From positions 44,098,990-44,162,989 of the forward strand of contig NC_092637.1 in assembly GCF_039555335.1 (NCBI RefSeq): a DNA stretch of 64,000 bases, in the 5' to 3' direction. The notes under the pieces are model-generated. The model did no database searches, was not told the DNA's origin, and saw nothing but the letters and a program-made list of their open reading frames with translations. The position numbers and the translations under genes were made by a program. Shown here one piece after another: positions 29,111-62,863 of this stretch (position 1 is the stretch's first letter; every line of letters starts with the position of its first letter). Source of the stretch: Amphiura filiformis. Taxonomy: Eukaryota; Echinodermata; Ophiuroidea; Amphilepidida; Amphiuridae.

Positions 29111-29122
29111 TGTCTTCTTTAA

Positions 29123-29655
29123 GGGGTGGGGTATGAACGTTTGGACAGTATTTATTGTGGGACATTAGAGCACATCAGACATATCGAATTGCATTTTGAA
29201 TACGAAGAATGTCCTTCTCATATCAAATAATTTTGATTTTTTGAAATTCGCAATGTAATACACATTTTATGGCAAATCATTAAAAATTGATATTTTTGAT
29301 ATTTAACAGTACTCGAAGTAAATTTTATAAATCTGATGATTTATACTTAACGTGTATGTAGGTGGGATGAAATGCCGACGATCAATTGAAAATTTTGACC
29401 TTTCGTATTGAAGATATGGATTTTTTTTCCCAAAACACCAAAAAAAAAATTAGGTCTTTTGGGAAAAAATCCATAAATATCAAATTTTTATAATTTGTCA
29501 TAAAATTTGTATTATATCGTGATTTTCAAAAAATGAAAATTATTTGATATCAGAAAGACATTCTTCGTATTCAGAATGCAATTGGATACGTCTGTGGTGC
29601 TCTCATGTCCCCTAAAAATACTGTCGAAACGCTCTAAACGCTCATTTCAGATCCC
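29123..29655. mobile_element. 533-bp palindromic MITE (family B), complete, TTAA-flanked
   Basis: The left arm GGGGTGGGGTATGAACGTTT...GGACATTAGAGCACATCAGA is mirrored by the right arm (TATCAGAAAGACATTCTTCG...CATGTCC...AGATCCC). TTAA lies on both sides (29119-29122 and 29656-29659). It is absent from the equivalent place upstream of ZF-E, so it inserted after the segmental duplication, or a local rearrangement removed it there. A finger fragment (CATTTCAGACAGTATTCACA) follows it at 29660-29690. Confidence 0.8.
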
Positions 29656-29690
29656 TTAAGTACAAACCATTTCAGACAGTATTCACACTG

Positions 29691-34210: not shown

Positions 34211-34260
34211 GGTTGGTGACTAATGTTACTTGAGCACAGAATAATGGTCAATTTGCCATA

Positions 34261-34513
34261 TGTGACCCCTCGGCACAACTGAGCCCTGAAGTCGCCAATC
34301 ATCATTTTTGAGATATTCAACAAAAATATTTTGCTTGAAATTAGCTTTAAAATGATGTATATCATGTCTATAGTACTTGACATTTAAGTAGTGAAAAATC
34401 AATAAAACAGTCAATAAATCCTTTGTTTCCTATTGTTTATTGTTAAGTTCGATGGAGCATATCTCAATAGTGGCACTGGCGACATTCGGGCTCAGTTGTG
34501 CCGAGGGGTCACA
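34261..34513. mobile_element. 253-bp MITE (family D) with TA target duplication and a known empty site
   Basis: TGTGACCCCTCGGCACAACT...AGTTGTGCCGAGGGGTCACA with TA on both sides. The duplicated locus at 30305-30320 reads CCATATTAAG without the insert. This gives a direct pre-insertion/post-insertion pair. A second 253-bp copy is at 49300-49552. The TA duplication fits Tc1/mariner-type mobilisation. Confidence 0.92.
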
Positions 34514-34589
34514 TATTAAGTTTGAGACCCACTACATTAACAAGACATATACTCAGCCGTGAAAAAGGCGATTGTTTTAAATGCTGTGT

Positions 34590-39278: not shown

Positions 39279-39290
39279 TTGGGATCCAAA

Positions 39291-39907
39291 ATGAGCGTTT
39301 ATTGCGTTTCGACAGTATTTTTTGTGGGACATGGGAGCACCTCAGACCTATCGAATTGCATTCTGAATACGAAGCATATCTTTCTGATATCAAATAATTT
39401 TCATTTTTTAAAATCACAATATAATACAAATTTTATGACAAATTATAAAAATTTGATATTTTTCAAATTTTGATATATAACAGTCCTCGAAGTAAATTAT
39501 ATAAATCTAATGATATATTCTTAAAGTGTATGTAGCATGGAGGAAAAGCCGACGGTCAATTGAAAATTTTGACCTTTCATATTGAAGATATGGATTTTTT
39601 CCCAAAAAATCCATATCTTCAATACGAAAGGTCAAAATTTTCAATTGATCGTCGGCTTTTCATCCCACCTACATACACTTTAACTATAAATCATCAGATT
39701 TATCAAGTTTACTTCAAGTACTGTTAAATATCAAAAATATCAATTTTTAATGATTTGCCATAAAATGTGTATTAAATTGCGAATTTCAAAAAAACAAAAT
39801 TATTTGATATCAGAATGACATTCTTCGTATTCAGAATGCAATTCGATATGTCTGATGTGCTCTAATGTCCCAAAATAAATACTGTCCAAACGTTCATACC
39901 CCAGCCC
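39291..39907. mobile_element. 617-bp palindromic MITE (family B)
   Basis: The left end GGGATCCAAAATGAGCG and right end AAACGTTCATACCCCAGCCC, with TTAA to the right. The centre (about 39590-39640) is nearly perfectly mirrored around TTTTTTCCCAAAAAA, so one strand could fold into a long hairpin. Confidence 0.8.
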
Positions 39908-40248
39908 TTAAGAACCCCCTGTTCTAACAACAACAAAACAGGAAGAAAAAAAACAGTTTCAAAATAACAACAACAAAATATACCGCAAAATGTCAATATA
40001 CAACCCCCCATTTACCCTAACAAAAACCAAAAAAAGCCTGTTTTGTGATCAAGAATATGCAAATTATCGTGATAAATTCAATACTACATTAACTATAGGC
40101 CTAGGCCCTATTACAACATTATAACATTTGTGAGGGCTGTCATAGTTGTCGTCGCTCAATCATGTCTTATGTTATGTTATGTTATTTATTTTTTTAAATA
40201 TATTTATTTATTTATTCAATTAATTATTCATGTATTTGGCCATGCGTT
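39908..40248. other. Non-coding AT-rich spacer
   Basis: Contains AACAACAACAAAA and TTTATTTATTTATT simple sequence. Confidence 0.4.
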
Positions 40249-41050: not shown

Positions 41051-41178
41051 GTTGACTTATTGACTTATTTATTTCTTTATTAACTTATTAATTTATTTAT
41101 TCATTTTTATTTTACAGACATTAAATCATGACAGTAGTTCAATATTGAGTTTACCTATTATTGTATTGACTTCGTTAA

Positions 41179-41662
41179 AGTATCTAAAATGAGCGTTTAT
41201 TGCGTTTCGACAGTATTTTTTGTGGGACATGAGAGCACCTCAGACCTATCGAATTGCATTCTGAATACGAAGCCGACGGTCAATTGAAAATTTTGACCTT
41301 TCATATTGAAGATATGGATTTTTTTCCCAAAACGACATAATTTTTTTTGGTGTTTTGGGAAAAAAAATCCATATCTTCAATACGAAACATCAAAATTTTC
41401 AATTGATCGTCAGCTTTTCATCCCACCTACATACACTTTAAGTATAAATCATCAGATTTATAAAGTTTACTCAAGTACTGTTAAATATCAAAAATATCAA
41501 TTTTTAATGATTTGCCATAAAATGTGTATTAAATTGCGAATTTCAAAAATCAAAATATTTGATATCAGAATGACATTCTTCGTATTCAGAATGCAATTCG
41601 ATATGTCTGATGTGCTCTAATGTCCCAAAATAAATACTGTCCAAACGTTCATACCCCACCCC
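41179..41662. mobile_element. 484-bp palindromic MITE (family B), shortened left arm
   Basis: Flanked by TTAA (41175-41178 and 41663-41666). The left arm lacks about 130 bp present in 39291-39907: it jumps from CTGAATACGAAG straight to CCGACGGTCAATTGAAAATT. The right arm is complete. Confidence 0.75.
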
Positions 41663-41936
41663 TTAAAGAAAGTCTCTAAATTTTGCTTACCTAGGTCAAC
41701 GGGCAATAATTGTTAACAGTCGGGCAACGCTGTGAATTGTATATCTTTCTCCGGTTCATAGTTTTATATTCGAAGCCGCATATATTTTGACGACCAAAAA
41801 GAATTCGAAGCCGAATATAATATTCGCCTTCGAATATTCACTATGAACCGGCCCTCAACCCTAACACTGACCCGTGCTTTTTGATATCGGAGGTCATTGC
41901 TGCCCGGCCAGCAATTCCGTGAGCATATCACACTTT

Positions 41937-43016: not shown

Positions 43017-43565
43017 AAGCATTCATTAAGCCATCATAAAGCGAAGTAGAAAGTCTAGACAATCTACTGACGAGATTCTTCAGGCTTTATAAACTCCATA
43101 CAAAGCATTCATTAAGCCGCCATCACAAAGCGTAGTAGAAAGTGGAGACAATCTACTGAAGTCTACTGACGAGATTCTTCAGGCTTTAGAAACTCCATAC
43201 AAAGCATTCATTAAGCCATCACAAAGCGTAGTAGTAAGTGGAGACAATCTACTGACGAGATTCTTCAGGCTTTAGAAACTCCATACAAAGCATTCATTAA
43301 GCCATCACAAAACGTAGTAGAAAGTGGAGACAATCTACTGACGAGATTCTTCAGGCTTTAGAAACTCCATACAAAGCATTCATTAAGCCATCACAAAGCA
43401 TAGTAGAAATTGGAGACAATCTACTGACAAGAATCTTCAGGGTTTGATGAAACTCCATACAAGGCATTCATCATAAGCCATCACAAAGCGTAGTAGAAAG
43501 TGGAGACAATCTACTGACAAGATTCTTCAGGATTCAAATTAATGGATTCAAGTCATATTTCAAGT
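43017..43565. repeat. Minisatellite, 86-bp unit, about six copies
   Basis: Units begin AAAGCATTCATTAAGCCATC and contain GTAGTAGAAAGTGGAGACAA and GAGATTCTTCAGGCTTTAGA. The 43201 to 43287 step is 86 bp. One unit has a duplicated CTACTGAAGT stretch. The last unit runs into the 1.5-kb tandem duplication. Confidence 0.85.
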
Positions 43566-43653
43566 TATTAAAATTGACATTTTATTAGACGTAAAATATT
43601 CGGTTCAACCTGTCTTCGTTTTTAATCTATTCCCACTCTATTTTCATTATAAA

Positions 43654-43854
43654 GGGATTCACCATTAGACTTCAAGGGGGGGGGTAGGAAGTATTTAAAA
43701 AAATTCCACCACTACATGAGCAACAAAAAAAACCTTTCCCACCAACACTACACTAAAAAAAATCCCCACCTAACTGTGTATAAATGCATGAAATTTAAAA
43801 CAATTTCTCCCTACCACAACTTCCTACCCCCTTTGAAGTATAATGGTGCGTCCC
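43654..43854. mobile_element. MITE (family F), copy 2 (in tandem unit 1)
   Basis: The left end GGGATTCACCATTAGACTTC is slightly changed and the right end ATAATGGTGCGTCCC intact. The equivalent in unit 2 is about 45202-45396. Confidence 0.7.
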
Positions 43855-43888
43855 TAATGTTTAACTTCTAACGAATGGTTGATGCGTA

Positions 43889-44060
43889 GGGGCTGTGCAA
43901 TAATTATGAGCCGGGGGGGGTAATATTTCCAAACGGCTCAACAAAATCGCTTGTCCCCCTCTCGGCCCGCCAAAAATGGCTTGCCCCCCCCCCCCCTTCT
44001 CGGCTCGCCAAAAATTCTTCCCCCCCCCTCGCACATGCCAAATTTTCAAACTGCATGGCC
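43889..44060. mobile_element. Family E, left part only (in tandem unit 1)
   Basis: GGGGCTGTGCAATAATTATG and GCTTGCCCCC body phrases are present. The right terminal repeat is absent. The equivalent in unit 2 is about 45432-45595. Confidence 0.65.
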
Positions 44061-44432
44061 TTACCCTTACTCATATTGGAAGAGTTTCTTCTTATGATTA
44101 AGACTAAATATCTAAACAATATTGAGTTACACAATAAAATACTATACAAAATTTATTATATAGGCCTACATTGTAGCCGTTAATTAAGCACTTGTTCGGT
44201 TGAAATTACAAGTTTCAAATGTGGCGAGGAAGTTTAACTTAACTTGGCCGGATTCAAATTGTACCTTGTAGCTGCATTATTTGCCTGGAGCACAAATAAG
44301 GTAAACCGCCTTAGTTCTTCAACCTTAGCAGATGACCCTTTTGTGTACCAAGAGTCCAGGTAGTTACAATTTGCGTGCTCCAAGCGGTCGACATGAAGGT
44401 AATGACGGAACAAACATCCACTTTTATCTTAA

Positions 44433-44769
44433 AAGGGCATTTCGCGATCCACAGCCTCATCCCCCCACTTTTCTCAAAAAAAGTTGAGATTTTTATATCA
44501 CTGGAAACCTCTGGCTACATAATGTTTATGTACAAAATATTTCTTGCAGATTAATTCATTTAGCAAAGATATCGTGAAATTTGAATTTCGTTCTGGTGCA
44601 CCAGAACGAAATTACAACGCATTGTCTATGGAGCAGTGTAATACACATAATCATGCATAACTCGCGAACGCAAAATCGGAATCAACTGAAATTTTGGGAA
44701 TAGGCTTTTTCGTGGATATCTAATGAAAAATGACATAAATAGAGGATGCTAGGATCACGAAATACTCCT
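44433..44769 (-). mobile_element. MITE (family C), copy 2, TTAA-flanked
   Basis: Inverse of 1841-2190: AAGGGCATTTCGCGATCC at the left, GGATCACGAAATACTCCT at the right, with the inner TTCGTTCTGGTGCACCAGAA palindrome. TTAA at 44429-44432 and 44770-44773. Confidence 0.8.
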
Positions 44770-45045
44770 TTAAGCATAATTATGACATATTGATTTATTG
44801 TCCTTAATCTTAGTAACTTAATCCTTATGGGTCGAAGATTGACCACCTACTAATCCACTACACTAATTATTTCTTGAGCTATTCCAAAAATTAACTGCAT
44901 TCCCTAAAGAAGTCATTTTTTTTTAAATGCTCGGGAATTCTCAGAGCAGAATTTCATTGGGTAAAAATGTGAATTTTCAGTTAGGGGCAAACTCCATTGA
45001 AAAATTTCCAGAAAAAAAGGAAGAATATCACAAAGATCGTTGGGA

Positions 45046-46580
45046 AAGTGGAGACAATCTACTGACAAGATTCTTCAGGATTCAAATTAATGGATTCAAG
45101 TCATATTTCAAGTTATTAAAATTGACATTTTATTAGACGTAAAATATTCGGTTCAACCTGTCTTCGTTTTTAATCTATTCCCACTCTATTTTCATTATAA
45201 AGGATTCACCATTAGACTTCAAGGGGGGTAGGAAGTATTTAAAAAAATTCCACCACTACATGAGCAACAAAAAAACCTTTCCCACCAACACTACACTAAA
45301 AAAATCCCCACCTAACTGTGTATAAATGCATGAAATTTAAAACAATTTCTCCCTACCACAACTTCCTACCCCCTTTGAAGTATAATGGTGCGTCCCTAAT
45401 GTTTAACTTCTAACGAATGGTTGATGCGTAGGGGCTGTGCAATAATTATGAGCCGGGGGGGTAATATTTCCAAACGGCTCAACAAAATCGCTTGTCCCCC
45501 TCTCGGCCCGCCAAAATGGCTTGCCCCCCCCCTTCTCGGCTCGCCAAAAATTCTTCCCCCCTCGCACATGCCAAATTTTCAAACTGCATGGCCTTACCCT
45601 TACTCATATTGGAAGAGTTTCTTCTTATGATTAAGACTTATATCTAAACAATATTGAGTTACACAATAAAATACTATACAAAATTTATTATATAGGCCTA
45701 CATTGTAGCCGTTAATTAAGCACTTGTTCGGTTGAAATTACAAGTTTCAAATGTGGCGAGGAAGTTTAACTTAACTTGGCCGGATTCAAATTGTACCTTG
45801 TAGCTGCATTATTTGCCTGGAGCACAAATAAGGTAAACCGCCTTAGTTCTTCAACCTTAGCAGATGACCCTTTTGTGTACCAAGAGTCCAGGTAGTTACA
45901 ATTTGCGTGCTCCAAGCGGTCGACATGAAGGTAATGACGGAACAAACATCCACTTTTATCTTAAAAGGGCATTTCGCGATCCACAGCCTCATCCCCCCCA
46001 CTTTTCTCAAAAAAAGTTGAGATTTTTATATCACTGGAAACCTCTGGCTACATAATGTTTATGTACAAAATATTTCTTGCAGATTAATTCATTTAGCAAA
46101 GATATCGTGAAATTTGAATTTCGTTCTGGTGCACCAGAACGAAATTACAACGCATTGTCTATGGAGCAGTGTAATACACATAATCATGCATAACTCGCGA
46201 ACGCAAAATCGGAATCAACTGAAATTTTGGGAATAGGCTTTTTCGTGGATATCTAATGAAAAATGACATAAATAGAGGATGCTAGGATCACGAAATACTC
46301 CTTTAAGCATAATTATGACATATTGATTTATTGTCCTTAATCTTAGTAACTTAATCCTTATGGGTCGAAGATTGACCACCTACTAATCCACTACACTAAT
46401 TATTTCTTGAGCTATTCCAAAAATTAACTGCATTCCCTAAAGAAGTCATTTTTTTTTTAAATGCTCGGGAATTCTCAGAGCAGAATTTCATTGGGTAAAA
46501 ATGGGAATTTTCAGTTAGGGGCAAACTCCATTGAAAAAATTTCCAGAAAAAAAGGAAGAATATCACAAAGATCGTTGGGA
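45046..46580. repeat. Tandem duplication unit 2 (about 1.54 kb)
   Basis: Near-identical to unit 1. The differences I can see are mostly in G, C, A and T run lengths (for example a shorter C run near 45525). It ends GATCGTTGGGA, then unique sequence AATCCCATGTCC. Confidence 0.9.
45965..46302 (-). mobile_element. MITE (family C), copy 3 (in tandem unit 2)
   Basis: Same as 44433-44769 apart from one extra C in the C run near 45995; TTAA at 45961-45964 and 46303-46306. Confidence 0.8.
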
Positions 46581-46952
46581 AATCCCATGTCCTCTTTAGT
46601 GAACATGATACATTTTTGGGAATTCCCACTGCTAAATGACGATTTTTCTTGGGAAGGCTACAAAGTTTCTACAATCCCGTGTTTTCTTTGGGGTGGAATT
46701 AAGTTCTGGAATAGCCATTTTCCATCATCTATGCAACTCAATCCCCAATGTACTTCATCACCAACTTTATTTCAATATCACAAATTTACAGCTCTGGTAT
46801 TTACAACCACTACCCTTTTTAAAGGCTTTTGTTTCTTTAAATAAAAGGTAATCTGTGGTAGCACATTTTTCTCTTGTACCCACAAGCTTCCCTTTCCACA
46901 CACGTTGTAATGTTATCAACATGCAACTTTGCACTGAAATACAAGGCCTTAA
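46581..46952. other. Non-coding, nothing recognised
   Basis: Unique-looking sequence after the tandem duplication. The small open frames lack splice or family support. Confidence 0.3.
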
Positions 46953-48934: not shown

Positions 48935-49299
48935 CTGACAAGGAACAGAACAATGATTGAATATGTTATTTTTGGTACATGGTTCCAAACGGGAAGATAA
49001 TTGTCACACATTTATTTTATTTATTTATTACATCATATTTACCCAGGGTAACCCGATCAGCAAAAATGCTGTTCTTACACGAGGCCCTGCATCATATAAC
49101 AATTGCACAACAGAAATTTAAAATTACATATAAAGGTACAACAAAATTATTAACACATATCAAATCAAACCAACATGACAAAAATAATATAGCACCAACT
49201 AGAGGAAAAATTATTTGACCAAAAAACCAAACAAATGAACATCTCTACGTATATATAAATACACTGTTAAATACATATGAAACCACTAATAACATCATA

Positions 49300-49552
49300 T
49301 GTGACCCCTCGGCACAACTGAGCCCTGAAGTCGCCAATCATCATTTTTGAGATATTCAACCAAAATATTCTGCTTGAAATTAGCTTTAAAATGAGGTATA
49401 TCATGTATATAGTACTTGACATTTAAGTAGTGAAAAATCAATAAAACAGTCAATAAATCCTTTGTTTCCTATTGTTTATTGTTAAGTTTGATGGAGCATA
49501 TCTCAATAGTGGCACTGGCGACATCCGGGCTCAGTTGTGCCGAGGGGTCACA
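49300..49552. mobile_element. 253-bp MITE (family D), copy 2
   Basis: Same length and ends as 34261-34513 with TA at both flanks (49298-49299 and 49553-49554). Only a few substitutions separate the copies. Confidence 0.85.
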
Positions 49553-50222
49553 TATTATAGCCTAAACCATGGAAGTACTTCTCAGTCAGTTGTGAGCACG
49601 GTCGCTAATGAGCTCAATTCGGTAGTTGTGATATGAGGATCTCGAAGAATCTCATGATTTCTCGCTCGCAATCTGTGTACAATAATTTGGACAAAATCAC
49701 GCTGAGCACTGGCTGACCTGAAAGATATAGTATAGTCACCAGAGGGGGTTCCCATGCACCGAGTGCTTTTTTTTTTCTAACTTACATTTTTGTAATCCTG
49801 AAGGTGTCTAGTAAATGAATTTTGATGTTCCCAAAATTAAATATTGTCCCATGGGGCTCATTTGGCGGCCATCTTGGATTCCGACAAAATTCAATCAAAT
49901 TGACATAACTTTTGAACTAGACATCATAGGAAGAAAAATTACCCCATTTTTCGGGATAATGTGGACATGAGCAATCAATTAAAAGGGTTATTTTCATGAT
50001 TTAAACATGTTGGATACATTAAAATGCAAAATATTACTAAAATAGTATCTTCAAGGCATACTCGTCTGTATATATGAGCTCTTTTTTGGTACATTGAGAA
50101 GGATATTTTGATGTTATTGATTTATTTACTATTTTCTCTTCTAGGTGCATGACATTCACTTATTATTAGCTAGAACTGGTGTTAGTGAACTAAAAATCGT
50201 AGAATAGTTATAGTGAAGTGGT

Positions 50223-51100
50223 GGATAATCATGCCAAAACGCAAGGGTGATAAAGGTACTGAGTCAGACTCACTGCAGAAACGTCCTCCTGTAAATTGTA
50301 TTTTACATGTGAGTGGTATTGAGCATCTAGATTTTACGCCGCTCAGTAACGTCACTGACAAGCTGGCTCAGCTACATGATATTTGCGACAAAAGACACAT
50401 TGAACCTCATGATTCACCCTATCGCATGGATGATGTCTATAATCACATTCCGGAGAGTCTTGCTGGTGTAGATTTATATAGAAACAATTGGATATCATCG
50501 AGGCTGCTACCAAAACTTTACTGAAAATCAATATCGTTTGAAATGTAGTGCAGGAACTAATGAAGCTTCAACATCACAATCCTCTCGTAACCGTAAATTA
50601 CAATTATCAACTGTCATGCGACTGTTCCCTCTAGAATGTATCTTTTGTGAAAGACTGGAAATTAAAGTGTCTGGAAAGACTGAGAGACGCAAAAATTCCC
50701 AGTATGCAAGGACAAAGACGGAGCATTTAAGGAGCCTACTTGGAAACAGATTGAGCCTCAGGCACTAGAACTAGGACTACATCGTCTACATAGCATGGTG
50801 CTAGGTGAGGACATCTTTGCAAGAGAGGCGAATGAGAAGCTGAAGGTCCTACTTGAGAACCACATTATCCATAACTCGATCGCCTATGCCAAATTTCATC
50901 TAGGTGACAAAGGGTATTTCACCAACAACCTGGTCTACAGCGGCAGCATCTCTGTCGCAGACGCGGTGACTGCAAACTACCAAAACACATACTGCTCTGC
51001 ACTATCATCCGGCACCTCTACAGAAGCACACAACTCGCCACTATTCTCAGTAAGCTGGATATAACTGCGACACTGAGACATATAACTTCACCTTGGAACT
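50223..51100 (+). pseudogene. Left-arm coding relic (MPKRKGDK protein), N-terminal half
   Basis: ATG at 50223 opens MPKRKGDKGTESDSLQKRPP, then CILHVSGIEHLDFTPLS and HIEPHDSPYRMDDV. Here an insertion (TTTATATAGAAAC versus TTTAGAAAC in the right arm) shifts the frame away from the conserved YHRGCYQNFTENQYRLKC motif. Later frames give CIFCERLEIKVSGKTE and GEDIFAREANE. The segment present in the right arm between AREAN and KLKV is deleted. The HxGCYxxFT and CxxC motifs suggest metal binding; the function is unknown. Confidence 0.6.
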
Positions 51101-51128
51101 TGAGACAGTGCTGGCCAAGGATCTTAAT

Positions 51129-51595
51129 CACGGTTGTTTGATGGGATCATTTATTAGTTTTTCAAACAATTCATCATGTATAACCAAATTTTAGGCTTAA
51201 ACAGCTAAAAGTGATATCGTGCTAATGTATACAGATGATTTTAAGTCGTTCCCAACTTTAATTTCCCCTCTTTTACAAAATTATTCACTTTTATAGTATT
51301 TTTATAAGCTTTTTCGGCTATAAAATGTATATATTAATGCCAAAATTGGTGGCGCTATTTAGTTACTGGAAATTACCCTTTCAAGCTTTTAATACAAATA
51401 ATTCCTTTTATTGTTTGATAAAATATGTTTATAAAATTTCTTTGTTACTTGTTTTACCTATTCCAGTTGTTTTAATGGCGGTATTAATCACCTAACCCTT
51501 GCAAATAAAGAAATATGATTTAGGATAAATAGCGCCATCTATAGTTTGCATTTAGTTAATAATGAAGCCAATTCTATATACATCAAACAGCCGTG
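51129..51595. mobile_element. 467-bp MITE nested in the left arm, TAAT target duplication
   Basis: CACGGTTGTTTGATG at the left and CATCAAACAGCCGTG at the right; TAAT at 51125-51128 and 51596-51599. The right arm lacks it, so it inserted after the arms separated or only into this copy. A partial relative is at 1-141. Confidence 0.8.
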
Positions 51596-51599
51596 TAAT

Positions 51600-52156
51600 G
51601 AGGTTTCCACATCCCTTACTCCGCAGATCATTACCGGCGAGGGAAAGGATGTGTTTCATCTCGAATGGGACAATCTAAACAAAACTGACGAATATTCATG
51701 GGTCAAACGTGGTGACCAGCACTGGTGGGATAATGATACAAGATGTGAAACCCGGGTTTGATACCACTAACTAACCAGGATCGGACTCTCCCTCTGTATG
51801 AGCGTAGATATACCCGAGACCATGGCTTCTGTTCATTTCTGTAGTCAAGTCGGGCCCAAATTTCCTGAGGGAACCGTGTTCACTCCGCCCATGATAAATA
51901 GCGAAATGTACTCAACATGCATCTCAAAGAATATCGTGTCTGGTCATTTAGACGGGAAGCAGTGGGGAGAAGCAGCCTGTCCCAGGGTTTGGTGGCTTCC
52001 TCTCAGCTACCGGTGTGAAACCCCAAAGAAAGTCAACTATCGACTATTTCACCCCTATCCATCACCCCTTCACCGAATTCTCGACTTTCAAGGAGCTTCT
52101 AAAGTGGTCAGAAGATGCCACCATCCAAGTGGGTCAGGAGTATGTCCTTGTCTTCA
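51600..52156 (+). pseudogene. Left-arm coding relic, later part
   Basis: Frames encode GKDVFHLEWDNLNKTDEY, QWGEAACPRVWWLPLS and then TIDYFTPIHHPFTEFSTFKE and KWSEDATIQVGQEYV. The first two parts are mirrored in the right arm; the last part is not and ends at the arm junction. Disrupted by frameshifts. No family named. Confidence 0.5.
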
Positions 52157-53867
52157 TATGTGACATACTTCACAAGCATGGTAAAAGTGGAGGGGTCCTG
52201 TAAAGCGAGGTCGAGGGTCTCACAAGGAGTACATGTCTGTACGAGATTCAGCAAGGTCTTGGGGTTGGTGACCTCAACATTCTCCTCCTCAATGAATCGC
52301 TCAATTAACAAGCGCTTCACCGACTGTTTAGTGGCAGAACAGTGCTTTTGCATATGCCTTCCCTGTCAATACACTACGTAGGCAGCCACTGGTAATGAGA
52401 TAAGCCACCAAACCCTGGGACAGGCTGCTTCTCCCAATAGCTTCCACAGATGTGAACAGGATCAGGGTGTATCTACTTTTAGGGAGCGCAACTTGCTCCG
52501 CGCGTAGAGAGGGAGAGTTCGATCCTGGTTAGTGGTATCAAACCCGGGTTTCACATCTTGTATCATTATCCCACCAGTGCTGTTCACAACATTTTAGCCA
52601 TGGATATTCGTCATTGTTTTGTTTAGATTGTCCCATACGAGATGAAACACGTCGTTTCCCTTGCTGGTAATGATCTGCGGAGTATTATGTGGAAACCTTA
52701 GCTAGCATTGTCTCTAGTTCCTAAGGCGAAGTTGCATGTCTCACAGTGACCCAGCTTACTGAAGATAGTGGTGAGTTGTTTGCTTCAATAGAGGTGCCCG
52801 ATACTAGTGCAGCATGTGCTTTGGTAGTTTGGTAGAAGAAACAGGGCCACATCCTTATACTTATCTTTGAACCCCAGCTTATATGAATAAGTCACCGCGT
52901 CTGCGACAGAGATGATGGCGCCGTAGACCAGGTTGCAGGTATATATATAGCCTTTGTCACCCGGATAAAACTTGGCAAAGGTGATCGAGTCATGAATATC
53001 ATGGTTCTCAAGTCGGACCTTCAGCTTGTCACTTCTGTACTCTGGATTGGGGAAGCCACTTCTTTCAAACTCTTGTATGATTGTACAGAAGACTCAGCGA
53101 TGTACGTAACATAACCTCCTTCTGCCCAACAACTCGGTCTTGAATGAAATCAAGGACAACAGTGAATGCCAACAGATGTGCAGCAGCTTTACGATCCTGC
53201 TCTGTTTCAATTGTCGCTTTCACTTCATCACGCAGGTAAGTTGTGTACTTCGTGTTGAAAGAATCGCGACAGGAATAGTGGCAATTCGCCTCTCTTGCAA
53301 ATAGGTCCTCACCTTGCACCATGCTATGTAGACGATATAGTCCTAGTTCTAGTGCCCGATGCTCAATCTGTTTCCAATGCTGGGAATTTGATGCATCTCT
53401 CAGTCTTTCCAGACACTTTCATTTCCAGTCTTTCACAAAAGATACATTCTGGAGGAACAGTCGCATGGCAGTTGATAATGGTAATTAACGGTTACGAGAG
53501 GATTGTGATGTTGAAGCTTCATTAGTTCCTGCACTACATTTCAAACGATATTGATTTTCAGTAAAGTTTTGGTAGCAGCCTCTATGATATCCAATTGTTT
53601 CTAAATCTACACCAGCAAGACTCTCCGGAATGTGATTACAGACATCATCCATGCGATAGGGTGAATCATGAGGTTCAATGTGTCTTTTGTCACGAATGTC
53701 ATGTAGCTGAGCCAGCTTGTCAGTGGCAGAGCCCCTTAGTTTACTGAGCGGCGTAAAATCTAGATGCTCAATACCACTCACATGTAAAATACAATTTACA
53801 GGAGGACGTTTCTGCAGTGAGTCTGACTCAGTACCTTTATCACCCTTGCGTTTTGGCATGATTATCC
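52157..53867 (-). pseudogene. Right-arm coding relic (MPKRKGDK protein)
   Basis: From ATG at 53867 it reads MPKRKGDK..., KLRGSATDKLAQLHDIRDKR, ETIGYHRGCYQNFTENQYRL, then after broken stretches MVQGEDLFAREANCHYSCRD, HLLAFTVVLDFIQDRVVGQK, KFYPGDKGY, WGEAACPRVWWL and finally LLIERFIEEENVEVTNPKTL and CETLDLALQDPSTFTMLVKY up to the arm junction. It retains segments deleted in the left arm, so the two arms complement each other. Several stops and frameshifts make it inactive. Confidence 0.6.
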
Positions 53868-54046
53868 ACCACTTCACTATAACTATGCTACGATTTTTAG
53901 TTCACTAACACCAGTTCTAGCTAATAATAAGTTAAGTCATGCACCTAGAAGAGAAAATAGTAAATAAATCAATAACATCAAAATATCCTTCTCAATGTAC
54001 CAAAAAGAGCTCCTATTATATACAGACGAGTATGCCTCGCAGATAA

Positions 54047-54440
54047 TATTTTTAGTAATATTTTGCATTTTAATGTATCCAACATGTTTAAATCATGAAA
54101 ATAACCCTTTTAATTGATTGCTCATGTCCACATTATCCCGAAAAATGGGGTCATTTGTCTTCCTATGATGTCTAGTTCAAAAGTTATGTCAATTTCATTG
54201 AATTTTGTCGGAATCCAATATGGCCGCCAAATGAACGCCATGGGACATAATATTTTGCATTTTAATGTATCCAACATGTTTAAATCATGAAAATAACCCT
54301 TTTAATTGATTGCTCATGTCCACATTATCCCGCAAAATGGGGTAATTTGTCTTCCTATGATGTCTAGTTCAAAAGTTATGTCAATTTCATTGAATTTTGT
54401 CGGAATCCAAGATGGCCGCCAAATGAACCCCATGGGACAA
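54047..54440. repeat. About 190-bp tandem duplication in the right-arm leader
   Basis: ATATTTTGCATTTTAATGTA...AATATGGCCGCCAAATGAAC is followed directly by a second copy ending AAGATGGCCGCCAAATGAAC. The left arm has only one copy (about 49860-50030). Confidence 0.8.
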
Positions 54441-54910
54441 TATTTAATATTGGGAACATCAAAATTCATTTACTAGACACCTTCAGGATTACAAAAATGT
54501 AAGTTAGAAAAAAAAAGCACTCGGTGCATGGGAACCCCCTCTGGTGACTATACTAATAAGTGTATACTGGCATTTGTTTTCTAAAAAACATTTCAAAATT
54601 GCTTCCAAATTGCTAAGGAGACATGTACATTTAATTCTGTGATAAAAAACGAGACCAACCGTGGTTGCGTTTGTAATAGGCTGCTACTTGGGAAATTGTG
54701 CATGTGTATGCGTATGTTCATATGAAAGTAGTCGGAGCATAAACACATTGCATTTGAATGTATTTTCACGGTGTGAAATTCTCAGACCTTTTGAAACCGA
54801 TTCATTCCGATTAAACCCCAAACATAAAATATTTCCCCCGATCGCACGCGCAGAAAAAATGCCCTCTTCAGCATTATGTACATGTACAGTGCGAAGTTCC
54901 AATGTGTAAC

Positions 54911-55456: not shown

Positions 55457-55872
55457 GGAATTTTTTTTATTATATTCCTTGTACAATGACATTTCACAAT
55501 AAAATGTCCATTGGAAACAAAGGTGTATGGGTGAAAGAAGTACTTTTGCCAAGGATACTCAATCAAGCGTGTGGTGCTATGTCTTGCGTAGGAGACTAAC
55601 GAAAAAGACGAACATTTGCACTTTTCTTTCCAATACTGTCATATTGTGAAGTACCAAATAGTAAAGGTGAAATACCATTGGAATATAATTCTCGCGATGG
55701 CCCATGTGACAAGTTGATTTTGGCTAAGTAAGTTGTCTTTTTACTCAAAAGTACTGCGATTTTGTCCGCCAATTTGACCCTTATAGCTTACTGAATAAAT
55801 GCCGCTGTTTTCAGACCAGACACACCCTTAAGTGCATGGCAATTTTTAGCTGGTAACTGGTAATTAAGTTAA

Positions 55873-56525
55873 GGGCTGGGGTATGAACGTTTGGACAGTA
55901 TTTATTGTGGGACATTAGAGCACATCAGACATATCGAATTGCATTCGAATACGAAGAATGTCCTTCTGATATCAAATAATTTTGATTTTTTGAAATTCGC
56001 AATGTAATTCACATTTATCGCAAATGATTAAAAATTGATATTTAACAGTACTCGAAGTAAACTTTATAAATCTGATGATTTATACCTAATTATGTAAGTG
56101 GGATGAAAAGCCAACGATCAATTGACAATTTTGACCTTTCGTATTGAAGATATGGATTTTTTTCCCAAAACACCAAAAAAATTAGGTCTTTTGGGGAAAA
56201 AATCCATATATTCAGTATGAAAGGTCGAAATTGTCAATTGATCGTCGGCTTTTCCTCCCAGCTACATACACTTTAAGAATATATCATTAGATTTATAAAA
56301 TTTACTTCAAGAACTGTTATATATCAAAATGTGAAAAATATCCAATTTTAATAATTTGTCATAAAATTTGTATTATATCATTGTATATCGTGAATTTCAA
56401 AAATGAAAATTATTTGATATCAGAAAGACATTCTTCGTATTCAGAATGCAATTCGATATGTCTGATGTGCTCTCATGTCCCACAAAAATACTGTCGAAAC
56501 GCTCAAAACGCTCATTCCAGATCCC
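55873..56525. mobile_element. 653-bp palindromic MITE (family B)
   Basis: GGGCTGGGGTATGAACGTTT at the left and the mirrored arm ending AGATCCC. TTAA is at the left flank and TAAA at the right. The centre is mirrored around TTTTTTTCCC / GGGGAAAAAA. Confidence 0.8.
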
Positions 56526-56963
56526 TAAAGTGCATGGCAATTTTCAGCTGGTAACTGGTAAGTTAATGTTTCCAAATGCATGTATTTAACGGATGAAATA
56601 AATAAACCATTATTGCATTTAGTAGAGAATCTGATAACAATGTCACAATGCTATAAACAAATAAAATGCACTAACGAATATACAACAGGAAAACAACTTA
56701 CAGTAAGTAAAAGAATTAAGGTAGCAATTACGTTTACCCCCTGCATATTCTAAACAAAATATGTCATAATTGCAACCAGTAGCAAATAGCTGCATTTTTT
56801 AGCTCGAATTTAAGACCTCAGTTGTTGAAATCGTTCACGAAATAAAGACAAAACGATTCAAAAACCCAAAGAAGATGCCAATTAAAAAGTTGCAGTTTGC
56901 TCCATTACAAGCCCTACTCGCTGTCAAAATGAAGTAATTAATCGGATTAACTAACATAGTAAT
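56526..56963. other. Intron sequence, nothing recognised
   Basis: AT-rich. A copy of GTGCATGGCAATTTT...CAGCTGGTAACTGGTAA flanks family B on both sides (55832-55862 and 56529-56560), suggesting that a short flank was duplicated. Confidence 0.4.
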
Positions 56964-59723: not shown

Positions 59724-60290
59724 CATGGCACATCACGATCAAATGACAATAAATGGACAAAGCGCTGCACACAATGGAGGACAAGTTCACAAAGTAGAGC
59801 TAAAACAGATGGTGGTGTGCAATGTAAGGTTTGTAGGCAGAACATGAATGAGAGGAGCATATGGCCAAATAGCACCAACTTGGGGAGGCCTTTGCCCTGC
59901 AGTGGGCCAATGACAATTGAGATAAATGAGTACAAACGAATAAAACAGGTAAACACGCGCATTAATGGACACACACAAACAAAACACTGTATTACAGAAA
60001 ATAAATATTTTACACAATTACCGTAAACCTCGCCTATAAACATAATTAAAGAATGCTTCTGGTGAATCCAGGCACTATCCATCGACACAATTATAACATT
60101 ATGGAGTTTAGGCAAATAAATTACCGATACAAGAATATCACAAACAAGTGATAGTGTAAGACCAATTTATTGTATTGGCATATTTACGGCTGTTTCGTAT
60201 GAATCAAGCTTTCATCCAAAAACACCATATATAATGGTAGAAGAGGTTTTACGGTATTCGTACACTGATTATTGTCTCATTTGATACTAC
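59724..60290. other. Intron sequence beside the receptor exon
   Basis: Contains GGCCTTTGCCCTGCAGTGGG-type sequence in an old repeat setting. A 149-codon minus-strand frame here has no family support. Nothing firm. Confidence 0.3.
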
Positions 60291-62669
60291 CTTTATAAAC
60301 ACTAGCGTATTTTGGAGACCATCTTTTGCTCGAATTTTAGATTCGTCAGGCACTTTAGAATTTCTTTGTGTCTTCCACAGGACCACCGTAATCCAGGAGA
60401 ACAGTATGAAGTTGAGTACCACGGATATAGCTACTGGTACCCCGAAAGAAATCATATTTGCTTCGGCATTTGATATCCAACAGGCGCCTTGTTGCTGGCC
60501 ATATTGGAAAGAGATTCCTTCCGGTTGAGCCCAGTGAAGAATAAGGCATATGACGACAATTGCGGAAGGTATTCCCCAGCCTAAAAGATGAAAATATCTA
60601 GACATCATCAGCGTTGGTGCTATGACTCCTTCGCGTGATTTGAGGGTCTTGTATGCGAATGTGTAGGTCAGATTCACCGCAATTAAACTCATCCAACTGA
60701 AAGATGCAAGCCAGGCAAAATGACTTACAACGGCACAGGTTGTGCACAACAAACCTGGGACGCTTATGCTATCTGTTATCAGTGGCAACAGCTGTGCTGT
60801 AAACAACGAAGCAGTTACACTCATCATACACATGCCATGAATGTTACGTAATTCTGGTAGAACCAAGTGGGTTCCAAATGTCATCGCAAGTCCTGTCAAC
60901 GATGACGTTGTTCCAACGATGTTTGCAATAGCAAGGCCTGCAGAATAAGCGAAGACTTCCGGTGTAGGTTCGCATATTAAGATACGACCATCAGGGAGAG
61001 ATACAAACTGGTCTTGAAAAGAACAACATCACCATACCAGACTTCCGTGTGATTTCGTCTCTGTACCATTACGTACTCGTACTCATAAATCGTCACAAGA
61101 GGGCATTGTAAAATTGGAGTTTCAGAACCGCACACGTGACAGTCCTCGTAACTTGCGAATTTAAGCAGAAATGGGTTATATTGATAATGTAATACACACA
61201 AGACAAACTCGGGTGTAATGTAGACATCACCGTGAATATATACCTCTGCAATACGAGTGATATTGTTAACTCTCCGAAAGTCCATGGCTACTCCATTATA
61301 CCAATGGCCGGAACATTGGTGCGTGTTCGAGTGCTTTTGACATTCATGAATGAATTCAATACTCTGTACCGAGCAGGAGGAAACGAGGCCTTGTACAATT
61401 TTGTGATCATGAAGGGCTGCTTGTATGCGATTGAGAATATTACTTGCGCTTCCATTACCAACGTCATATCCCTCTAAGATACTGGTGCTAGTAAATGATA
61501 ACGAATACATGTCTTGTATATCGAGGTAAGCTTCGTTCAAAATACCAAGTATTTGGAACGCACAACCTGACATATTCTTAGTATTTCCGCCAATAAAAAT
61601 CTTTGTATTTTCTTGAGCACAAAATTGACCATCAATGATGCTTTGAAGATCTGGGTCTGGAATACAGTGTCCGTCTCGCCGTTGGAATCCTGGAGCGCAT
61701 GCTAGCGGTCGGCAAATGCCAGAGTAGGTGTCAAATACTTCTTCTTTCGCGCAATGCTTGCTTTTACGACTGTCTGTGTGACTGGCATACTTCCAAACGA
61801 CGGAGCTTAAATATCCATTTGGAGAGGTCCAACGGTTCGCCGATTCGGTAAAGGAGCATGTCATGAAATCATTATCATTGTCAGCGCCATGACAGAGTAA
61901 ACAATGTGGGTTTTTGTATCTCTTCCACTCTGTCGTAATTTTATAAAGAAAATCATCGCGGTGACAAACCGGTGCCACATAAGACTCACACGCATTTCGA
62001 ACGGACTCATTCCCGTATGTTTCCGGGCAAGAGTCGATTAATTCCGGAAAGCAGCTACGTAAACGATGTCCTGTATATACATTTGGCTGCTCTTCATTGT
62101 AGTTGTCATTACTGCAAAGATCTTGAGCGATGGGATCAATGGCCCCTGCCTGACGCCTGTGACGCGGTGTACCAAAATCATATGTACTTGCCTGGTCAAA
62201 TGTGGCTTGGGGTTCATCCATATTCCAAAATTCAAGAAATAGAACGTTTTGACGGTTACAGATGCCACAATATAGATTTCTAAAATTGTAGCCTTCGCGA
62301 TTATATAGCGGCCAATGTCGTGAAGCCGCTTGATCACTGCTCCAAGATTTAACTTCATAGGCACATTTTTACGAATAGACTCGTTTTCCCAGTCTTCTGG
62401 GCACTTTCTTATCAAAAACGCGCTTGGGATGAATTCAGATACCTCAGAACAAGAAAACAGTTCTGCTGGAAATGTTGTTGAGTTAGAAAGCTTCTCATTG
62501 GTTGGTGATCTGCACATTGAATAGTAATCCATACAACAGTCGTTAAATAATTCACATTCTGAGTCACATTGGCAAACAGCTAATTTGGTTTCATTTCCGG
62601 CAATCCCACAACGTTGCTGACACGAAAGTGTGCGATGTGTTCGTCCTTTGAACTCGCCAACGTTAAATG
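60291..62669 (-). CDS. Receptor gene, large exon: somatomedin B, two Cys modules, TM1-TM5 (two frameshifts)
   Basis: Probably a cell-surface seven-helix receptor of the family-B/adhesion-like type. After acceptor TTTTTCATCCACAG the exon encodes an eight-cysteine somatomedin-B domain (CQQRC...CQCDSEC...CCMDYYSMC). Then come two related modules: CPEDWENESIRK with YCGIC, and CPETYGNESVRN with CLLCHGAD. Between them is a basic RHRRQ site that a furin-like protease could cut. About 250 extracellular residues follow, then TM1 to TM5 (LLGWGIPSAIVVICLIL is TM4; ACWISNAE is the second extracellular loop). No GPS/GAIN cleavage motif is seen. Two one-base losses break the frame, at the T run 62366-62370 and the T/A run 61017-61020, each in a homopolymer. 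They could be assembly errors or disabling mutations. The signal peptide must lie in an upstream exon, and the ligand is unknown. Confidence 0.82.
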
Positions 62670-62863
62670 CTGTGGATGAAAAATTGAATATATATGAAAT
62701 TTATGGAGTTTCATATTTCCCAGAAGAATTTTTTTCCAGTGATTGTATTTTAGGAAGTAACTTCGAATATAGTTTTTCTGTCCGTGATACGGGTTTATTT
62801 TGGTAATAAAAATACTGAGACTTGTGGTAAATGTATCTTAGATCAAAATATCACTCTGGGTGA

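Follow-up and report, generated by a model that had tools for sequence, protein, structure and literature searches.

The locus raises the question of how two long inverted arms, which open with the same protein, came to lie tail to tail within a single receptor intron of Amphiura filiformis. An earlier note, made from the letters of the DNA, had described exact inverse ends with TA at both flanks, and arms that share a protein start, keep different parts and meet near 52156. It offered two readings, two convergent copies of one element or a foldback element able to move as a unit, and also raised the prospects of an assembly product and of an ordinary host gene. We examined the dimer within the window, by which we mean the whole 64,000-nucleotide stretch analysed here (37.4% G+C, free of N), and the features are collected in Table 1.

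We found that the described architecture holds in each of these respects. Between 49200 and 55200, 22 inverted pairs were listed, 18 of which run from arm to arm: the perfect 48-bp end pair and, leading inward like a ladder, 17 others of 26-269 nt. The arms are about 2.4 kb long (1.96 kb for the left arm without its nested insertion) and their similarity ends exactly at 49728/54555, where zero further bases pair; compared with each other by blastn, the 300-bp flanks gave no match at E 1. Both 48-bp inverted ends are one and the same terminus of the element, doubled, and on either side the inverted arms take in coding as well as 5′ non-coding sequence, as extended TIRs do. When up to three mismatches are allowed, the 19-bp end core is found in the window at the two dimer ends alone (expected 0.01), and exact matches to the end sequence numbered 0 for the 19-mer in a bacterial contig collection and 0 for an 18-mer in a viral one. 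The candidate target duplication is either the TA of the earlier description, with ends GTATAG, or ATA, with ends TAGTATAG, and the two fit equally well; among the lengths of 1-8 tried with both end placements, none above 3 fits. The junction was placed at about 52146-52161. A hairpin signature at this point was considered and dropped, as 43 of 1000 random sites in the window match or surpass the 8-bp inverted repeat found there.

A minus-strand receptor gene of the Somatomedin-B/7tm_2 kind surrounds the dimer, which sits within one of its introns, about 11 kb long, in agreement with the receptor intron proposed earlier; the gene is represented by the two exons with profile matches and by a TM6/7-like stretch recognised by eye (Table 1). 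Several other repeats were observed in the window. A 262-bp pair with inverted ends (34257-34518 and 49296-49557, 97.7% identity) has its second copy 170 bp left of the dimer, and mutually matching repeats in both orientations occupy at least four places (29115-29659, 39281-39911, 41175-41670 and 55869-56534), one of which shares the dimer's intron. Furthermore, a direct duplication of about 1.55 kb covers 43480-46582 (43480-45047 vs 45027-46582, 98.3% identity), and a minus-strand cluster of C2H2 zinc-finger ORFs with many copies of a 12-residue repeat extends over 11744-33411, where Pfam was applied to one ORF.

Table 1. Coordinates of the inverted dimer, its coding pieces and private lesions, the intervals compared between arms, and the surrounding receptor gene.
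Feature	Position	Strand	Basis or count
Left arm, 5′ part of the element; broken coding region opening with MPKRKGDKGTESD	49728..52156	+	self-comparison, ORFs, alignment
Right arm, same 5′ part reversed; other internal deletions	52157..54555	-	self-comparison, ORFs, alignment
Perfect 48-bp inverted end, left; core GTATAGTCACCAGAGGGGG from 49730	49728..49775	+	inverted-repeat listing
Perfect 48-bp inverted end, right	54508..54555	-	inverted-repeat listing
Arm junction, 8-bp inverted repeat AGTATGTC / GACATACT	52139..52169	.	
N-terminal ORF fragment, left arm	50189..50524	+	ORF list
N-terminal ORF fragment, right arm, 138 aa, with YHRGCYQNFT	53485..53901	-	ORF list
Right-arm ORF fragment, 117 aa, with CHYSCRDSFNTKY and HLLAFTVVLDFIQD	53065..53418	-	ORF list
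Left-arm tail ORF (TPIHHPFTEF ... IQVGQEYVL); last residues cross the junction	51952..52203	+	ORF list
Right-arm tail ORF (LLIERFIEEENVEV ... VKYVTYEDK); last residues cross the junction	52108..52365	-	ORF list
Nested MITE-like 467-bp insertion, left arm only	51129..51595	.	
192-bp tandem duplication, 2 copies, 98%; non-coding outer part, right arm only	54056..54439	-	
Differing columns between arms	49728-50232		10/502
Differing columns between arms	50233-50688		13/451
Differing columns between arms	50689-51128		51/380
Differing columns between arms	51600-51804		18/199
7tm_2 exon	60249-61028	minus	ORF, E 9.4e-24
Somatomedin_B exon	62038-62700	minus	ORF, E 1.9e-9
TM6/7-like open stretch, 7TM end (GLVWILGFIAAF...)	~48.7-49.0 kb	minus	by eye

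Both arms open the same reading frame, and its first residues, MPKRKGDKGTESD, are contained in the ORFs of both. The later part of the 117-aa right-arm ORF falls in a 253-bp stretch that is missing from the left arm. Joined together, the pieces gave a composite protein of 661 aa, in which the order of the tail pieces was assumed (both follow PGFGG, and the window leaves their order free). Each arm holds broken frames, and on either side the similarity stops at the same base, which makes the ordinary host gene unlikely.

The earlier reader did not recognise the protein family, and this holds for Pfam, NCBIfam and the PDB sequences, where the query may lack the protein's most informative part. 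None of the 8 ORF pieces reached a family cut-off in Pfam or NCBIfam, nor did the 661-aa composite in Pfam, and one piece and the composite retrieved no convincing solved structure among the PDB sequences. Weak matches, none of them near a cut-off, to Pfam families (DUF763, 0.073; DUF5097, 0.068; Gp44_lid, 0.083), to NCBIfam families (NF005320, 0.0017 with 17.4 of 556 bits; NF045621, 0.16) and to a Cas2 chain of the PDB sequences (0.76) look like chance. A transposase catalytic domain had no match above cut-off in Pfam or NCBIfam, the relevant part being possibly deleted from both arms; likewise, neither a P-type transposase (THAP domain) nor a DDE family was matched by Pfam above cut-off in the ORF pieces or the composite, the pieces being broken and part of the protein missing. 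A TA target would fit Tc1/mariner. Protein scans of the bacterial and viral contig collections gave pattern matches in most and a confirmed relative in none, and single-sequence structure predictions (mean pLDDT 37 and 43) were too poor for fold comparison. Collectively, these library negatives do not establish a new family, as both arms may lack the diagnostic part. A literature search linking DUF6589 with transposons gave no paper, and among the titles listed by other searches none concerned the dimer's protein, from which we claim no absence from print. Corals and molluscs have large predicted proteins, labelled 'uncharacterized', which this one may resemble.

Each arm also carries lesions of its own, in line with the earlier remark that the arms keep different parts. 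The left arm lacks stretches of 253, 57 and 12 bp among others, as well as the 192-bp duplicate; the right arm lacks 35, 112 and 12 bp among others. The nested insertion of the left arm and the tandem duplication of the right arm go beyond the earlier note, as does the sharp divergence step described below. The ends of the insertion, CACGGTTGTTTGATG, form a 15-bp inverted repeat that is 93% complementary, with TAAT on both sides, and the 481-bp stretch holding it has 28% G+C. Excising the insertion in silico together with one TAAT yields the unbroken frame LETVLAKDLNEVSTSLTPQIITG. A partial relative of the insertion lies near the window start (45-92, 81% over 48 columns), and a motif like its ends is found at 141 on the minus strand. 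Separately, the outer left arm contains GGCGGCCATCTTGGATTCC at 49864-49882, within the stretch that is doubled in the right arm, and one of the two right-arm counterparts has an altered base. This motif resembles a YY1 site.

Next, we examined how the differences between the arms are distributed. In a global alignment from which the nested insertion had been removed, 1557 of 1677 columns match between the arms, some inner stretches being of doubtful homology, and the 145 columns beyond position 51804 of the left arm (L51804) were dropped as doubtful before the step analysis. Up to L51804, 92 of 1532 columns differ. We found a single divergence step at L50688, with 22 of 952 columns differing outside it vs 70 of 580 inside, and a gain in lnL of 29.7 vs a maximum of 8.7 in 300 permutations. 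A block-wise alignment, in which one more inner block was kept, gave the same step (33/958 vs 81/645; gain 23.9 vs a maximum of 7.1 in 300 permutations), so that inner divergence is about 5 times the outer in the global alignment and 3.6 times in the block alignment. The inner part is uneven in turn, with 51600-51804 (18/199) diverging less than 50689-51128. Since the step falls inside coding sequence, between 50233-50688 and 50689-51128, it is not a contrast of coding with non-coding DNA. No counts were taken from a whole-arm mafft alignment, which matches up inner stretches that are not homologous.

The inner differences gave a Ka/Ks of 0.46 (15.5 silent and 26.5 replacement changes, Fisher p 0.018) over 128 codons in 7 hand-picked segments, two of which have a right-arm stop and one of which, HLYRSTQL (near 50990-51060), had its frame partly assumed. 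The outer differences gave 0.91 (17 changes, p 0.77) and the whole 0.56 (p 0.037). This suggests that the inner differences keep a trace of weak purifying selection, in a sample of few and hand-picked codons. On this reading, the two sources may have diverged while the protein still mattered, with the outer part becoming common to both later. Unequal ages of the source pieces could yield the step instead of conversion.

We favour, with moderate confidence, the reading that the dimer is a dead, non-autonomous copy made by tail-to-tail fusion of front halves that came from two diverged sources, because an exact shared terminus stands between unrelated flanks and the arms show both a divergence step and private deletions. 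In this sense of halves from diverged sources, the two convergent copies of the earlier note find support in the step, in the Ka/Ks and in the private deletions (35, 57, 112 and 253 bp among others). The element itself is unclassified with exact ends, and we infer that it is most likely a DNA transposon.

Two nearby insertions in opposite orientation, followed by a deletion of both 3′ halves that fused the inner remains, would also leave arms that differ as separate copies do, and the outer TA/TA would be expected for any pair from a TA-targeting element. The flanks cannot separate one insertion from two, because each TA-targeting insertion leaves TA. Such an origin, however, needs neighbouring hits plus a well-placed deletion, and with the outer 1 kb far more alike than the inner part it would again require conversion, which leaves it possible but unlikely in our view. 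A single copy doubled back on itself, whether through hairpin priming or through a template switch, with both arms decaying afterwards, would fit the tail-to-tail form and the inverted repeat at the junction; that repeat, however, is no rarer than the random sites above indicate, and the excess of inner over outer divergence in both alignments, the inner Ka/Ks below 1 and the private deletions speak against a simple foldback, which we judge improbable.

A reading of the dimer as a mobile foldback unit, repeated many times across the genome, agrees with the same exact terminus at both ends and with the candidate TA or ATA target duplication, but no further copy of the end occurs in the 64-kb window, which is weak evidence against it. 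Movement as a whole unit is possible, with the outer TA/TA expected for any two insertions anyway; the many-copy form we consider quite improbable. As long inverted repeats are error-prone, an artefact of assembly or sequencing, such as foldback of a read or the merging of haplotypes, was also weighed, but arms whose divergence is 2% outside and 12% inside, with many private indels, a nested insertion confined to the left arm and a duplication confined to the right, all in a window with no N, leave it barely credible.

Galileo (P superfamily) of Drosophila mojavensis offers the closest comparison considered here. Passages of one report (PMC3573991) describe inverted arms that have taken up internal, non-TIR sequence (TIR1-F1-F1-TIR2), a subfamily whose TIR holds tandem repeats of ~210 bp, and chimeric copies with diverged ends and non-matching 7-bp flanks. 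According to the same passages, most Galileo copies have a 7-bp target duplication, the longest arms are never in nearly complete copies, the longest TIR being 1.26 kb, and the authors propose that one end was repaired with the opposite end of a different copy as template (PMC3573991; see also PMC4168063). The dimer is like Galileo, as presented there, in holding interior sequence in inverted arms, in its tandem repeat within an arm (192 bp vs ~210 bp) and in its chimerism. In contrast, its arms reach ~2.4 kb vs 1.26 kb and include coding sequence (PMC3573991), and no transposase match was found in the libraries searched. A 7-bp target duplication, as in most of those Galileo copies, had no match at the dimer with either end placement, and the Galileo-type flank test is uninformative here because TA may recur through target choice. 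Tetris and Tm1, foldback elements by the titles of their reports (PMC4079207, PMC3169594), are likened to the dimer by this label, the dimer being known from one copy. In animals, passages on Pack-TIR gap filling, or FoSTeST, describe template switching in repair that rebuilds the interior of a TIR transposon (PMC8277862); there the filler is non-TE sequence and microhomology is reported, whereas the filler of the dimer would be the element's own front half.

For the joining of two sources, we favour a repair route because the Galileo passages show like features, namely recruited interior, tandem repeats and chimeric copies. The 5′ halves of two already diverged copies would have been fused tail to tail, with the original 3′ half replaced. 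A break at or near the far end would have been repaired on the front terminus of another copy, and copying inward would have produced the front-inside-inside-front order, the route proposed for extended TIRs in Galileo. Subsequently, unless it happened during that very exchange, conversion or recombination would have made the outer parts near-identical over about 1 kb. The left arm also received its MITE-like insertion, and the right arm carries its 192-bp duplication. Both the route and this order of events are what we infer from the arms.

Taken together, these results describe a dimer that is real, degraded and non-autonomous, with a structure of a known kind, fused copies being known damage; structurally, it adds another copy to those with extended inverted arms. 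We think it rather doubtful, though conceivable, that an undescribed superfamily of animal DNA transposons left these arms as relics, one encoding a large Cys/His-rich protein, with GTATAGTCACCAGAGGGGG ends at TA targets, and prone to the joining of halves from different subfamilies into inverted dimers. No family of the libraries searched matched the protein, both sides fix the terminus to the base, and the step in divergence suggests that the arms had two sources. For finding an intact element in the host genome, the 48-bp end and the 138-aa N-terminal ORF can serve as probes.
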